DNA from: an uncultured Nitrospira sp.
GTDB lineage: Bacteria; Nitrospirota; Nitrospiria; Nitrospirales; Nitrospiraceae
DNA length: 64,000 nt
NCBI GenBank assembly: GCA_902500775.1
Contig: CABVRZ010000024.1
Span: forward strand, 1-64,000
Direction: 5' to 3'
The position numbers and the translations under genes were made by a program. A model generated the notes under the pieces. That model saw only the letters and a program-made list of their open reading frames with translations, was not told the DNA's origin and searched no databases. Of this stretch, positions 19,225 to 31,685 are shown piece after piece (position 1 is the stretch's first letter; every line of letters begins with the position of its first letter).

Positions 19225-21405
19225 TCAAGACCTGTGCTGCCACGACCGAATGCGTCGTGCTGTAATGACTCCCTCGATCCGTTCAATGGTTTTCAGCACT
19301 TGATTCAGGTGAGCCGTATCTGCAATCTCGACGATAAAATCGAGCTCAGCTTTACGATCTTCTCGCGTGATGATTTCGGCACGGCTGATATTCGCCTTGC
19401 ATTCGGCGATGGCCGATGAGACATTGGCCAACACCCCGGTCTTATCCTCCGCAATAACGGCAATCTTCACCGCATGGAGGCTGGGAGCAGCCGTATCCCA
19501 TTCCACTTCTACCAACCGGGCTCGATCGTAGTCCAATGCCTCTAGATTTGGACAATCTACGGAGTGGATCGTGAGTCCTCTCCCCCGTGTGATATAGCCT
19601 AAGATTCGATCCCCGGGAACCGGATTGCAACAGCGTGACAGCTGCATCAGGAGATCCCGCCCACCCTTGACCTGAACCCCTAGTTCTACTTCTCGACTGC
19701 TCGATCCCTTCAGGGATGTCGGCGGCTCGGACGGAGCTGGCACCGTCTCGGATGCCGGAGCAACCAGTCGATTCACGATATGCGCGGTCGCAATGTGCCC
19801 AAATCCGATGGCGATCGTCAATTCATCGGTCGTCTCGTATCCCTCTTGCTTGGCAACCGCAACCAATTCGCTCGACTTCAACACTTGAGCAGGAGCTAAT
19901 CCATGCCGCCGGAATTCCGTCTCCAGCAAGCGCCGACCGATCTCGAGACTCCGTTTCTGCTCCTCGGCTTTAATCCAATGTTTGATTTTTGTCTTGGCTC
20001 GCGAGGTGCGGACAAACTTGAGCCAATCTTTGTGCGGCATCTGATTCGGCGACGTCAGAATTTCAATCGTGTCGCCGCTCTCCAGCTCATATTTGAGCGG
20101 CACGATCTTGCCGTTCACCTTCGCTCCCACACAATGGTCGCCAACCTCCGTATGGATCGCATAGGCAAAATCAACCGGTGTCGAGTCTTTCGGCAACTCT
20201 TTCACCGTTCCCTTGGGAGTGAAGACATACACAACATCATGAAACAGTTCGAGCTTAACCGAGTCCATGAACTGACGATTGTCCGGCAGATCGCTTTGCC
20301 ATTCGATGAACTGCCTCAACCATCCAAAGGCTTTGCTGTCCTTATCCTCGACACGCCCTTGCTCCTTGTACTTCCAATGCGCCGCAATCCCGTATTCCGC
20401 CACGCGGTGCATTTCTTCCGTTCGAATCTGGAACTCGACATGTTCACCTTTCGGCCCAACCACAGTGGTATGCAGCGATTGATACAAATTGGATTTGGGA
20501 ATCGCGATATAGTCCTTAAAACGGCCTGGCAGCGGGCGCCATAGCGAGTGAATCACACCCAGCATGGCATAGCAGTTCATTTTCGTGTCGGTAATGATCC
20601 GCAAGGCAGTGAGGTCATAGACTTCTTCGAAGGAGATCGACTGCTTATTCATTTTTTGGTAGACACCATAGAGATGCTTCGGCCGGCCATAGACTGCGCC
20701 AGACAGACCGTGTTCTCCCAAGGCTTTCTCCACCAATTCCCGCACCTCTTGAATGTACTGTTGCCGATCCTCATCACGTTTCGCGACACGCACCCGTAAC
20801 ATCTCATACACATCCGGCTTCAAATGTTTCAGGCAGAGATCTTCCAGTTCGTTCTTGACCCATCCGACCCCAATGCGGTTCGCTAAGGGTGCATAGATCT
20901 CCAGGGTTTCCTGGGCGATCTCAAGGCGCTTCCCCTCGCTGAGATGCTCCAGCGTGCGCATATTATGCAGTCGATCAGCGAGTTTAATGATCACGACACG
21001 GATATCATCCGCCATCGACAAGACCATTTTGCGAAAGTTCTCGGCCTGCTTTTCCTCTGAACTTTTGAACGTAATCTTCCCGATTTTTGTGACCCCATCG
21101 ACCAAATGGACTACGTCCTTGCCGAACTCTTGTTCCAACTCGCCGGCCGTCGCCACCGTATCTTCCAACGTATCGTGCAGCAGCCCGGCAACGATCGCCG
21201 TCACATCGGTTTTCAATGAGGTCAGCACGCCGGCCACGGCGATAGGATGCTTGACATAGGGCTCTCCCGATCGACGGGTTTGTCCTTCATGCGCCTTCGC
21301 GGAAAACTCGTAGGCCTTGCGCACCATCTCGAGATCAGCATCAGGCTGATAGGATTGCACCCGATCCAGCAGTTGATCGATGGTCGTCACCGTCTCATAC
21401 TTCAT
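19225..21405 (-). CDS. rel: Bifunctional (p)ppGpp synthetase/hydrolase, Rel/SpoT type
   Basis: This is a 726-residue RSH protein with four domains in order. The HD hydrolase comes first (HDTLED at 77-82). The synthetase follows (GRPKHLYGVYQKM and RFKDYIAIPKSNLYQSLHT), then TGS (VYVFTPKGTVKELPKDSTPVDFAY), then a C-terminal ACT domain. The synthetase motif is R-F-K-D, the RxKD form seen in bifunctional enzymes rather than the ExDD form of RelA, so both synthesis and hydrolysis of (p)ppGpp are expected. It lies 3 bp downstream of recJ and is probably co-transcribed with it. Confidence 0.93.
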   Translation of the reverse strand: MKYETVTTIDQLLDRVQSYQPDADLEMVRKAYEFSAKAHEGQTRRSGEPYVKHPIAVAGVLTSLKTDVTAIVAGLLHDTLEDTVATAGELEQEFGKDVVHLVDGVTKIGKITFKSSEEKQAENFRKMVLSMADDIRVVIIKLADRLHNMRTLEHLSEGKRLEIAQETLEIYAPLANRIGVGWVKNELEDLCLKHLKPDVYEMLRVRVAKRDEDRQQYIQEVRELVEKALGEHGLSGAVYGRPKHLYGVYQKMNKQSISFEEVYDLTALRIITDTKMNCYAMLGVIHSLWRPLPGRFKDYIAIPKSNLYQSLHTTVVGPKGEHVEFQIRTEEMHRVAEYGIAAHWKYKEQGRVEDKDSKAFGWLRQFIEWQSDLPDNRQFMDSVKLELFHDVVYVFTPKGTVKELPKDSTPVDFAYAIHTEVGDHCVGAKVNGKIVPLKYELESGDTIEILTSPNQMPHKDWLKFVRTSRAKTKIKHWIKAEEQKRSLEIGRRLLETEFRRHGLAPAQVLKSSELVAVAKQEGYETTDELTIAIGFGHIATAHIVNRLVAPASETVPAPSEPPTSLKGSSSREVELGVQVKGGRDLLMQLSRCCNPVPGDRILGYITRGRGLTIHSVDCPNLEALDYDRARLVEVEWDTAAPSLHAVKIAVIAEDKTGVLANVSSAIAECKANISRAEIITREDRKAELDFIVEIADTAHLNQVLKTIERIEGVITARRIRSWQHRS

Positions 21406-21408
21406 GGA

Positions 21409-23106
21409 TTACTCGATCCCTGCCGCTCGTATGTCTCGAATGCGCAATTGGATTCGGTCATGGCCGTTCCAGTGATTGAGCTCTGGCGTAAATGCGACGT
21501 CGATCGGGGTCTTGATCGACAATCCCTGCTCTTCCAAGGACTTCATCCCAAATCCGATACTATCAAACGGCATCGAGGCTCCCTGCCGAACGGTCATCTT
21601 CAAATGCTTCTCCCCCACGACGCGGGCCTGAAGGATATTCAATCCTTTCACGGCAAAGGTCGGTTCTGGATTGCCCGCACCGAATGGATGCAGCGTCCCG
21701 ATTTCTCGGATCAGTTGGAGCGTGACCTCGTCGAGTCGAACTTCAGAGTCCAGATGCAACATCGGCACGCTCTGCGTACTCTGCCTCCATGCCTCAGCCG
21801 CCGCAGCAAACCGTTCGGCGAATTCGGGCAGTTGCTCTTCCTTGAGTGTCACTCCCGCTGCACTGGGATGGCCTCCAAACGCGATCAATAGATCTCGGCA
21901 TCCCGCCAACGCCTGATAGAGATCGAACCCCGGCACCGTCCGCGCTGATCCTTTTCCAATCCCCTCGTCGTTGACGGCAATGACGATCGTCGGCCGATGA
22001 AAACGCTCCATGATCCGGGCCGCCACAATACCGACCACCCCAAGATGCCATCCTCTGGCAGATAACACGATACCGCCAGGCAACTCTCGTGACGCGACGT
22101 GGGACAATGCCTCGTCAAGTATCGTGGCCTCGAGTTCCCGACGCCGGTGATTCAGCTGGTCCAGCTCCTCCGCCAACCCTTGCGCTTCTCGTTCAGATTC
22201 CGTCGTCAAAAGCCTGACACCTTTGATCGCCTCATCCAACCGTCCTGCAGCATTGAGTCGAGGCGCAAGCTTAAACGCGATCGTATCTGCCGCACAGTCA
22301 CGAGTCACGCCAGCAACCTGCTTCAAGGCCCGCAGGCCACAACGTGCTCCACGCGAAATCTGCGCCAAGCCTTCGCGAACAAACAGTCGATTTTCGTCTT
22401 GCAACGGAACTACATCGGCGATTGTCGCCAGCGCGACTAAATCCACTAGAGATTCTACGGGGACCGTTCCTGCCCCGAATTTGTTCTCATACGCCTGCAC
22501 GACTTTGTACGCGAGACCTCCGGAGCAGAGCCCATGAAACGGATATCGCGCGTCCGGTCGATGGGGGTTCATCACCGCCAACGCTGGCACCATCTCCATG
22601 TCGCTCTGATGGTGATCCGTCACGATCACATCGATCCCGAGTTGACTCGCGAGGGTGATCTCACGATGCGACGTCGTTCCGCAATCGGACGTCACAAGTA
22701 ACGTGATGCCGTCCTGCGCCAGAGCTCGAACTGCCCCCTCATTAAGGCCATATCCTTCACGCAGGCGATGTGGCACGTAGGCACGGACCTGTGCTCCCCG
22801 ATCTCGGAAAAATGACACGTACACACTGGTCGCTGACATGCCGTCCACATCGTAGTCACCATAAAAACAGACACGCTCATGCCGTTGCATAGCCTGATGC
22901 AACCGGTCAATCGCCCGCTCGACATCGGGAATCAAGAACGGATCATGCGCTCGAAGCGGGGACATCCAGGCCACCGCCTGGTCCACATTCGTCACACCGC
23001 GATTGAGCAACAGGGAGGCCGTCGCGGAAGAGATGGATAGCGCTTGCGAGAGGCGGCCACGTTGGATTGGGTCAACCTGCCGAAAGACCCAGCGCTTAGA
23101 CTTCAC
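21409..23106 (-). CDS. recJ: Single-stranded-DNA-specific exonuclease RecJ
   Basis: This is a 565-residue 5'-3' ssDNA exonuclease used in recombination and mismatch repair. The DHH-family motifs are CFYGDYDVDGMSAT, LVTSDCGTT and VIVTDHHQ; the DHHA1 motif GGHPSAAGVTL and a C-terminal OB-like part (ILQARVVGEKHLKMTV) follow. The length is normal. It is followed immediately by rel. Confidence 0.93.
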   Translation of the reverse strand: MKSKRWVFRQVDPIQRGRLSQALSISSATASLLLNRGVTNVDQAVAWMSPLRAHDPFLIPDVERAIDRLHQAMQRHERVCFYGDYDVDGMSATSVYVSFFRDRGAQVRAYVPHRLREGYGLNEGAVRALAQDGITLLVTSDCGTTSHREITLASQLGIDVIVTDHHQSDMEMVPALAVMNPHRPDARYPFHGLCSGGLAYKVVQAYENKFGAGTVPVESLVDLVALATIADVVPLQDENRLFVREGLAQISRGARCGLRALKQVAGVTRDCAADTIAFKLAPRLNAAGRLDEAIKGVRLLTTESEREAQGLAEELDQLNHRRRELEATILDEALSHVASRELPGGIVLSARGWHLGVVGIVAARIMERFHRPTIVIAVNDEGIGKGSARTVPGFDLYQALAGCRDLLIAFGGHPSAAGVTLKEEQLPEFAERFAAAAEAWRQSTQSVPMLHLDSEVRLDEVTLQLIREIGTLHPFGAGNPEPTFAVKGLNILQARVVGEKHLKMTVRQGASMPFDSIGFGMKSLEEQGLSIKTPIDVAFTPELNHWNGHDRIQLRIRDIRAAGIE

Positions 23107-23274
23107 CTGTGCCTCCTTCTATATCTGGGCCATCGCACGATTCAGAGTATGACACTCGCGGAAACGAGCCAGACTCTAATAAGTCGCTGCTTCTTTGTCA
23201 AACAACACAGTGAGGAAAACACCACCGGGGTATCAGCAAGGGGGACTCAAAGAGATTCGAAGGGAATCACGCGC

Positions 23275-23472
23275 TTATTCGCCTCCTTTTTGCACATAGT
23301 TTTTCACAAATTCCTCCGCGTTCTTTTCGAGAACGTCGTCAATTTCATCAACCAGCTTATCGATATCGTCCTTCAGCTTCTTCCCGGTCTCCACGACCTT
23401 CGGGTTGGCTTTGACCTCTTCCTTGCCTTGCGGTTCTCGTCTCGGCTCTTGCTTTCGTTCTTGCTTTTCCAT
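23275..23472 (-). CDS. pup: Prokaryotic ubiquitin-like protein Pup
   Basis: This is a 65-residue, highly charged, probably disordered protein. Its C-terminal half (LVDEIDDVLEKNAEEFVKNY, then VQKGGE) is the Pup signature: the helix that binds the Mpa/ARC ATPase and the terminal Gly-Gly-Glu. It ends in Glu rather than Gln, so no deamidation by Dop should be required before PafA ligates it to substrate lysines. AGGAGGTGCTCGG precedes the ATG at 23472; the in-frame Met at 23490 lies before that site. Neighbours are recJ and hppA; ligase and proteasome genes are not in the window. Confidence 0.9.
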   Translation of the reverse strand: MEKQERKQEPRREPQGKEEVKANPKVVETGKKLKDDIDKLVDEIDDVLEKNAEEFVKNYVQKGGE

Positions 23473-23586
23473 CCGAGCACCTCCTGTCATCCAGGGAAAT
23501 CCTCGCGGTCAGCTCATAACCACCGATTCTACATTCACCATACTCTAGGAAACAGAAACCCGTCAAGGCAAGGGCAGAAACGAAAA

Positions 23587-23614
23587 GCGCCGTTTCCCAG
23601 ATGGGAAACGGCGC
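23587..23614 (-). terminator. Rho-independent terminator after hppA
   Basis: A perfect 12-bp stem (GCGCCGTTTCCC / GGGAAACGGCGC) with a 4-base loop is followed on the minus strand by TTTTCGTTTCT. It separates hppA from pup. Confidence 0.9.
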
Positions 23615-23641: not shown

Positions 23642-25696
23642 TCAGACGATCAATGAGATGATAAGAAGGGCCACGATATTGATGACCTTGATCATCGGGT
23701 TCACCGCCGGACCAGCCGTATCCTTATACGGATCACCAACCGTGTCACCGGTGACCGCCGCCTTATGCGTGTCGGTACCCTTTAATCCCTGTTCTTCGAT
23801 AAATTTCTTTGCGTTGTCCCAGGCACCGCCGCCGCTCGTCATTGAAATCGCGACAAACAGACCAGTGACGATACTGCCGACCAACACCCCGCCGAGTGCT
23901 TGCGGCCCAAGCACTAAACCGATGACGACCGGTGATGCCACGGGAATTAAACCAGGAATCATCATCTTCTGGATAGCCGCTTGCGTCACGATATCAACGC
24001 AAGTGCCATACTCCGGCTTGCCCGTACCTTCCATAATCCCTGGGATCGTCCGGAACTGCCGCCGGACCTCTTCCACGATCAACCCTCCCGCTTCACCGAC
24101 GGCCCTCATACACATGGAGCCGAAGATGAACGGCAGCATACCGCCGAGAAAGAGACCAACCAAGACTTTGGGATTCGAGAGGTCGAAGGCCGCCAGCGCC
24201 GGATTATGCGCGGCCACTTCCCGCGAGTATTCGGCAAAGAGCACCACGGCCGCCAACCCAGCCGACCCGATGGCATAGCCCTTGGTCACCGCTTTCGTCG
24301 TATTGCCTACAGCGTCCAATGGATCCGTGATGTCCCGAACTTCTTTCCCCAAATGCGACATTTCGGCGATACCACCGGCATTGTCCGTGATCGGGCCAAA
24401 CGCATCGATCGCCACCACGATTCCGGCCATCGAGAGCATGGAGACAGCTGCCACCGCCACACCAAACAGCCCACCGGACTCGGCACCGCCACAGACCCAG
24501 TAGCTGCCGAGGATCGCCATGGATATCACCACAACCGGAGCCGCTGTCGACTGCATGCCCACCGCCAGACCGGCGATGATGTTCGTCGCATGGCCGGTTT
24601 CACTTGCTTTCGAAATGTACTTCACCGGCTCATACTCTTTTGAGGTGTAGTAGTCGGTGATGAAGACAAGCGCCAAAGTGACCCCTAAGCCAAGCAACGC
24701 AGCAATGTAGTAGCTGAATCCACCGACACCACCGACCCCGCCCATGATCATAAAGGTCACGGGCAAGAAAGCGAGTGCGGCAATCCCCCCAGCTACAAAT
24801 AATCCCTTGTACAGGGCTGGCATAATGTCGCCCCCTGGAGCGACCTTGACATAGAGAATACCGACGATCGTCGCAAAGATCGTGATACCACCCAACGCGA
24901 GAGGATACAGAATAGGCGCTGTGGCTCCCTTGAACATGGTAAAGGCCAGCACCATCGCCGCAACGGTCGTGACGGCATAGGTTTCAAAAAGATCCGCCGC
25001 CATGCCTGCGCAATCGCCGACATTGTCACCCACGTTATCCGCGATAACCGCCGGGTTCCGTGGATCGTCTTCAGGAATCCCTGCCTCCACTTTGCCGACC
25101 AAGTCTGCCCCGACGTCAGCTGCCTTTGTGTAAATTCCCCCACCGACACGCGCAAACACGGAGATCAAACTCCCCCCGAATCCAAGACTGAGCAATGCAT
25201 GAATGGCCTTCTCCTGGCCAGCCATCGATTCGGCGATCGAATAGAACCCTGTAATGGCCAGTAGCCCGAGACCGATCAGCAAGAGACCGGTCACCGCGCC
25301 ACCACGAAACGCCACAACCAGGGCCGCATTCAACCCGTTATGAGCAGCTTGTGCCGTCCGCACATTGGCACGAACCGCGATGATCATACCCACATAACCA
25401 GCGAGCGCCGACGCGCTTGCACCGACCAAGAATCCAAATGCTGTGAGTAGACCAAACTTGTCTGATACGGCTCCGGCGGCTGCGAGAATGACGAACAGAC
25501 CTGCTGCCACATAACCGACGGTTTTGTATTGTCGATTCATGTAGGCGCTGGCGCCTTCCTGAATCGCCTTTGCAATTTCCTGCATCTTCGCGTTGCCGGC
25601 ATCAAGCTTGAACACCCACATCGCCAGGTACAACCCATAGCCAATGCCCGCCACGGCCGCGATGAGGGCAAATGTGATAATCGCTGAGTCACTCAC
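23642..25696 (-). CDS. hppA: K+-independent proton-translocating pyrophosphatase
   Basis: This is a 684-residue polytopic membrane protein that couples PPi hydrolysis to proton pumping. The substrate and Mg2+ motifs are [40 protein letters not shown] and the C-terminal DNAKKFIE and [15 protein letters not shown]. The sequence GNTTKA carries Lys at the position that distinguishes K+-independent enzymes (GNTTAA in K+-dependent ones). It starts with GTG after GGAGGATCTCCC. It is monocistronic, with a terminator at 23587. Confidence 0.93.
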
Positions 25697-31048: not shown

Positions 31049-31342
31049 ATGAGGCGTGAGCAAGTCATGACCGTCTTGCAAACGCATCTTCATGAGATTC
31101 GAAGAGAGTTTTGCGTGACACAACTGGCACTCTTTGGCTCCGCCGCACGCGACGAGATGCAACTCAATAGCGATGTCGACATCCTGGTGCACTTCGAGGG
31201 GGTGCCGACCTTCGACCGTTATATGGACTTGAAAGCATATCTGGAACAGGTCATCGGAGCCAGCGTTGATCTCGTCACCGAATCGGCAGTCAAGCCGCGC
31301 ATGCGTCCCGTGATCGAAAAGGACCTGGTTCGTGTCGCGTAA
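31049..31342 (+). CDS. MNT-type nucleotidyltransferase (antitoxin of HepT)
   Basis: This is a 97-residue minimal nucleotidyltransferase. The active site is LALFGSAARDEM then NSDVDILVHF, that is GSxAR followed by DxD. In MNT/HepT modules this protein neutralises HepT, in studied cases by AMPylation. Its 3' end overlaps the HepT start. The start at 31049 could instead be the Met at 31067. Confidence 0.85.
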   Translation: MRREQVMTVLQTHLHEIRREFCVTQLALFGSAARDEMQLNSDVDILVHFEGVPTFDRYMDLKAYLEQVIGASVDLVTESAVKPRMRPVIEKDLVRVA

Positions 31343-31685
31343 CTGGGTGTTCTATCTTGAGGACATCCTTGAGAGTGCACGGAAGGTCCAACTCTACACA
31401 GAGCGGGTAACATTCGAACACTTTCAATCACAGGACCTGGTGTTCGACGCGGTCGTCCGCAACCTGGAGATCATTGGAGAAGCGGCCAAGCATCTCCCAC
31501 CGGACGCAAAAGCGATGATGTCTGCAGTGGACTGGAATAAAGTGGCTGGATTTCGGGATGTCATCGTGCATGGCTACTTTGGATTGGATGTCCACGCCAT
31601 CTAGGATGTCGTACAGTCCAAGATCCCTACGCTTATTTCATCAGTTGAGCACGCGCTACATCTGGCAAAAGACCAGGGGCAATAA
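31332..31685 (+). pseudogene. HepT-like HEPN ribonuclease, interrupted by an amber codon
   Basis: The open frame 31332-31604 encodes 90 residues of a HepT HEPN domain, with the RNase motif R-x4-H in FRDVIVHGYFGLD. The frame ends at TAG (31602-31604). Reading through it gives 26 more residues (DVVQSKIPTLISSVEHAL...) that look like the normal HepT C-terminus, ending with TAA at 31685. Family members usually have Trp at this place, so TGG to TAG is a likely single-base change. The last helix is lost, which may weaken the toxin or MNT binding. Confidence 0.75.

Follow-up and report, generated by a model that had tools for sequence, protein, structure and literature searches.

The window, i.e., the whole 64,000-nucleotide stretch of DNA analysed here, carries on its reverse strand an open reading frame of 65 codons that lies between recJ and hppA and encodes the protein MEKQERKQEP...DEIDDVLEKNAEEFVKNYVQKGGE (Table 1). 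The product scored 77 bits (E 2e-21) against the Pup family of Pfam (PF05639; cut-off 27) and 60.7 bits against TIGR03687 (cut-off 41.45), its 65 residues and KGGE end agree with the 50-90 residues and the C-terminal GG[EQ] taken as marks of a Pup, and its residues 28-65 aligned without gaps to the helix that Pup forms in its complex with Mpa (3M91, chain B), a match at the level of sequence alignment only. Since the family scores are well above the cut-offs, the frame is far from chance; a chance resemblance to Pup is ruled out by these scores together with the four Pup_ligase-family genes found in the genome, and, judged by its sequence, the frame is a genuine Pup gene. An earlier note on this DNA had described a 65-residue Pup between recJ and hppA with a conserved Mpa-binding helix, and the position of the frame, its flanking genes, its Pfam score and the helix alignment all bear this description out. 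A longer version of 71 residues, starting from an in-frame ATG at 23490, was rejected: the AGGAGGT ribosome-binding site sits inside its extra codons, while the same site stands 6 nt before the ATG of the 65-residue version and is conserved (GGAGGTGCTCG, kept across 23 aligned relatives). In the whole genome (4.53 Mb, 99.7% complete) no second Pup was found, which makes this pup the sole copy.

Table 1. Features at and around pup in the window.
Feature	Position	Strand	Details
relA/spoT-type (p)ppGpp synthetase gene	19225..21405	-	conserved next gene after recJ; pup remains beside relA where recJ is missing
recJ	21409..23106	-	GTG start; conserved downstream neighbour of pup
recJ promoter-like site	23173..23201	-	TTGACA-17-TAGAGT; separate from that of pup
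pup	23275..23472	-	ATG at 23472, stop at 23275; 65 aa, C-terminus ...YVQKGGE; PF05639, TIGR03687; aligned to Pup of 3M91, 3M9D and 7PX9
pup ribosome-binding site	23479-23485	-	AGGAGGT, 6 nt before the ATG
pup promoter-like site	23537..23566	-	TTGACG-18-TATGGT; conserved block in relatives
hppA intrinsic terminator (predicted)	23587..23614	-	12-bp stem, then TTTTCGTTTC; would separate hppA from pup transcription
hppA, membrane pyrophosphatase gene	23642..25696	-	upstream neighbour of pup in the family of the window (f1)

When 23 upstream regions were aligned, conservation was poor overall, with the two promoter-like blocks and the ribosome-binding site as conspicuous exceptions. The pup promoter pattern was found in 40 of the 44 upstream regions from family f1 (0.2% in shuffles) and was absent from the other four, and a generic promoter pattern preceded recJ in all 44 (0.7% in shuffles), counts to be read with the pup pattern having been written after the sequences were seen, the relatives not being independent and the shuffles keeping single-base composition only. 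In the second family of the order (f2), the corresponding counts were 0 of 3 usable regions for pup and 3 of 9 for recJ. Only some of the relatives had a predicted hppA terminator at the same place. As recJ has a promoter-like site of its own and the pup-recJ spacing is usually 145-300 bp, one operon of pup and recJ is unlikely, and a single pup-recJ-relA operon was likewise judged unlikely from the separate promoter-like sites. In family f1, pup most likely forms its own transcription unit, and we infer that its promoter-like site works as a promoter. Elsewhere in the window (31049-31604), two overlapping small genes resemble by eye a nucleotidyltransferase/HEPN (MNT-HEPN) toxin-antitoxin pair.

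A profile search of the genome recovered four Pup_ligase-family (PF03136) genes and six proteasome-fold genes. The pafA, dop, arc, prcB and prcA genes of the Pup system are located not on the contig of pup (C24) but on contig C12, and their UBact counterparts on contig C11. The C12 cluster (L013) runs thiG, thiE, arc (613 aa product), dop, prcB, prcA and pafA (464 aa product), and from arc to pafA it is complete except for pup, of which no trace was found there: dop shares 4 bases with prcB, and no Pup-like frame lies in the 370 bp that separate prcA from pafA. The products of arc, dop, prcB and prcA exceeded the NCBIfam equivalog cut-offs (ARC, for example, with 734 bits against 505). PafA was identified via Pfam PF03136 and alignment to 4B0T; it aligned along its length to the PafA structures 4B0T and 4BJR, its D63 being the aspartate that 4BJR carries as Asn. 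Moreover, the C12 ATPase (ARC) matched the Mpa coiled coil of 3M9B and 3M91 and ends in GHYL, and a loop is longer in the C12 Dop than in the C12 PafA (67 versus 35 residues). Thus the genome search that the earlier note had proposed, for pafA/dop, ARC/Mpa and proteasome subunits, recovered all five Pup-system genes in one cluster, and the observation by which the note would have dismissed its own reading, a genome devoid of any Pup ligase, was not made.

The C11 cluster (L012) encodes an AAA ATPase of 578 aa, a Dop-like protein, a 64-aa open reading frame, prcB-like and prcA-like subunits and a PafA-like protein. The 64-aa product ends in RQRTGE and is UBact by PF20513 (75 bits) and NF033388 (79 bits), and its gene occupies the position of pup in the cluster, flanked by the Dop-like and prcB genes. 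It is this cluster, and not the pup of the window, that contains the parts of a UBact system, i.e., the tag with its own PafA- and Dop-like genes and proteasome subunits. UBact was reportedly described in 2017 by Lehmann et al. (doi 10.1016/j.bbrc.2017.01.037). The C11 proteins scored under the Pup-system equivalog cut-offs, as expected for a separate lineage, and comparison of UBact with solved structures gave no meaningful match. Both tags should be largely disordered. The C11 ATPase (13032-14768 of L012) has no Mpa-like coiled coil discernible in its sequence and no GHYL end; the penultimate Tyr is absent from it and from three relatives (NHII, RQIE, RAIE and SQIV), and a GHYL/F/V end was present in all 18 full Pup-type ATPases compared. 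For the C11-type ATPase, another mode of docking on the 20S core is possible. The remaining two proteasome-fold genes are an HslV-like gene beside hslU on contig C34 (L014) and an Anbu-like gene in an operon on contig C7 (L015), which we take from gene context and our own reading to be HslV and Anbu; together with the Pup and UBact proteasomes, HslUV and Anbu would seemingly bring this bacterium to four peptidases of the proteasome fold.

A tree built from 68 PafA and Dop proteins (by a quick method, unrooted and with only four full UBact-type enzyme sets) resolved four separate groups: UBact-type ligases, UBact-type Dop, Pup-type PafA and Pup-type Dop. The Pup-type groups include Actinomycetota, Myxococcota and Nitrospirota, which suggests that the Pup and UBact systems separated before Pup spread among these three phyla. 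The catalytic aspartate mutated in 4BJR is kept in all four enzymes (D63 in the C12 PafA, D71 in the C11 PafA), which have 55 positions in common, catalytic residues included; in the UBact set, the loop measures 78-79 residues in the Dop-type enzymes versus 49-53 in the ligase. Only one residue was found that separates Pup-type from UBact-type in both ligase and hydrolase, and with so few residues consistently splitting the two types the sequences do not reveal how a tag is chosen.

Across 198 genomes of the phylum, 62 carry both tags, 28 Pup only, seven UBact only and 101 neither, and the copy number of the ligase family follows the tags: it is usually four with both tags (58/62), two with one (23/28 for Pup only, 5/7 for UBact only) and none with neither (100/101). 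The exceptions are mostly fragmented or incomplete assemblies. One genome (G179) has UBact and four ligases and no Pup, yet relA, found in the four sister genomes searched alongside, is absent there too; its pup locus therefore probably falls in an assembly gap, and a genuine loss of Pup is unlikely. Within one family, UBact-less genomes (G165, G141, G163 and G193) stand beside genomes with both tags and provide matched comparisons.

The named close relatives of the window are Nitrospira, order Nitrospirales. In all 55 pup-holding genomes of the order (45 of family f1 and 10 of family f2), pup immediately precedes recJ-relA, or relA alone in G163 and G189, which lack recJ, and in the f1 genomes hppA lies upstream of it on the same strand. 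The UBact set is present as a second system in most members of the order. Its distance from dop is about 47-57 kb in three genomes of the same genus with both genes on one contig (G108, G145 and G149) and elsewhere reaches up to 1.4 Mb (G135). Outside the order, pup was located between dop and prcB in the clusters examined in our sample (in G183 the contig piece ends just after pup, which adjoins prcB), and four outgroup genomes have recJ next to relA with no pup there. In a set of 80 named loci, pup was beside recJ-relA in Nitrospirales-like ones, one of them labelled Nitrospinota, and in the usual cluster in Actinomycetota and Myxococcota wherever the flank was long enough. These arrangements are most simply explained if pup moved once, at the base of the order. 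Detached copies also occur elsewhere: in a Patescibacteria locus (L232, 7983-8138), a Pup ending in KNYVQKGGE is encoded some 140 bp away from a divergently oriented recJ, in an assembly where no Pup ligase was found, and in a Rokubacteria locus no other genes of the Pup system lie near pup. The earlier note had called the separation of pup from the proteasome genes unusual; pup does lie apart from its enzymes, but this is the rule across the order and not a peculiarity of one genome.

The C-terminal half of Pup is nearly invariant across the phylum, and the N-terminal half is variable. With overlapping loci counted, 91 Pup ends are GGE and 10 are GGQ (of 102 extracted Pup frames, one of the GGQ being from the genus Nitrospira), and 26 UBact ends are TGE and eight TGQ. 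In both tags, Glu and Gln ends switch among close relatives, which implies repeated shifts in whether Dop must deamidate the tag. Thus the earlier claim that a terminal Glu bypasses the deamidation step of Dop is right in that no deamidation is needed, but it does not make Dop dispensable, as dop is kept and GGQ ends recur. One divergent Pup (G177, L090 5095-5310; 43 bits) has a short helix insertion (KALGENAVKENAAEFVKNNVQKGGE), the only such Pup among those compared.

Pup in Nitrospirae was reported in 2008 (PMC2588565); what the earlier note had presented as a Pup outside Actinobacteria is a real one, but of a kind long known in this phylum. The same paper stated that a PafA-family gene, dop or pafA, invariably adjoins pup, and a 2012 review described the gene order of the Pup system as rigidly conserved (PMC3511204). 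In the present genome, pup is on C24 and the rest on C12, and the order-wide relocation contradicts the published statements that pup always adjoins a pafA-family gene; it was not found in the literature searched, a limited collection, and may be published elsewhere. The presence of Pup and of UBact in the phylum and the doubled system of Leptospirillum are already published. Compared with the actinobacterial system (mpa-dop-pup-prcB-prcA-pafA in Mycobacterium), the Nitrospira system has the same tag, with a largely invariant C-terminal D-VLE-NA--FVKNYVQKGG, the same enzymes and, apart from pup, the same cluster order; it differs in that pup is located outside the cluster, ahead of recJ-relA and behind a promoter-like site of its own, and in that its Pup ends in Glu whereas the mycobacterial one ends in Gln. 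The UBact system, compared via its family models, corresponds to the C11 cluster with its Dop-like and prcB flanks, i.e., to a second system which is not that of the window's Pup and whose tag is still in its own cluster. Leptospirillum ferrooxidans, of the same broad group, likewise has two complete and very different systems in one genome (L1 and L2), one of its tags lacking the GGE end as UBact does; its copies were described as identical in genetic context (PMC3511204), whereas the Pup copy of Nitrospirales has lost that context.

Very probably, the gene in the window encodes the Pup tag of the C12 system, relocated once at the base of the order to its own unit upstream of recJ-relA, beside a separate UBact machine. 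Pup would be produced from a monocistronic unit with a Glu end ready for ligation; PafA would link the gamma-carboxylate of this Glu to a target lysine, the C-terminal helix of Pup would pair with the coiled coil of ARC, the GHYL end of ARC would dock on the 20S core for degradation, and Dop would remove the tag. From an ancestral position between dop and prcB the gene would have moved out a single time, and with pup outside the cluster Pup would be supplied independently of how the proteasome genes are transcribed. The cell would also contain a second machine built to the same plan, anciently diverged from the first and with UBact as its own tag. By all sequence evidence Pup appears functional, and we infer that both systems are active and that neither machine uses the tag of the other. 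The earlier question of which targets are tagged in this lineage thus becomes, given the UBact system, which targets go to which of the two tags.

That Pup is instead shared, serving the C12 and C11 enzymes alike, is unlikely: the catalytic residues and 55 common positions of the four enzymes, the Gly-Glu end of both tags and the location of pup apart from both clusters would suit such sharing, but the C11 cluster has UBact in the position of pup, its ATPase lacks a recognizable Mpa-like coiled coil and the GHYL end, and UBact-less genomes mostly have two ligases with Pup while five UBact-only genomes have two ligases and no Pup. Somewhat more credible, albeit still doubtful, is that the pup-recJ-relA neighbourhood is functional and couples Pup to the stringent response or DNA repair, via an operon or shared regulation. 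The linkage extends to every pup-holding genome of the order and survives beside relA where recJ is gone, and the Pup-proteasome system is important under nitrogen starvation in Mycobacterium smegmatis (PMC7947786); on the other hand, the promoter-like site of recJ and the usual gap argue against an operon, and the four outgroup genomes with recJ-relA adjacent and no pup suggest that the location may simply reflect where pup happened to insert and was then retained.

We give almost no credence to the view that the relocated pup is decaying or an unused bystander, as the only point in its favour is the distance from the enzymes, while pup is the sole Pup gene of the genome, its C-terminal half is nearly invariant, its ribosome-binding site and promoter-like site are conserved, and arc, dop, prcBA and pafA are intact. 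Beyond the relocation of the C12 tag favoured above, we tentatively suggest as a possible broader reading that most Nitrospirales run two anciently diverged and mutually exclusive machines, and that pup was excised once so that the supply of one tag could be set independently, perhaps with the starvation signalling at recJ-relA.

The supply of Pup may limit pupylation. Moreover, a whole order with pup freed from the proteasome operon and with a second tag system constitutes a natural experiment on why a bacterium has one, two or no tags. The rule that pup adjoins a pafA-family gene, on which neighbourhood-based annotation would depend, is corrected. Among the other loci collected, that of a Candidatus Sungbacteria genome (L215 in G200, a very small CPR genome of 1.1 Mb) is worth recording: the genome has five Pup_ligase domains, two of them in one open frame of 1071 aa (a tandem fusion), and a Pup-like match at a contig end.
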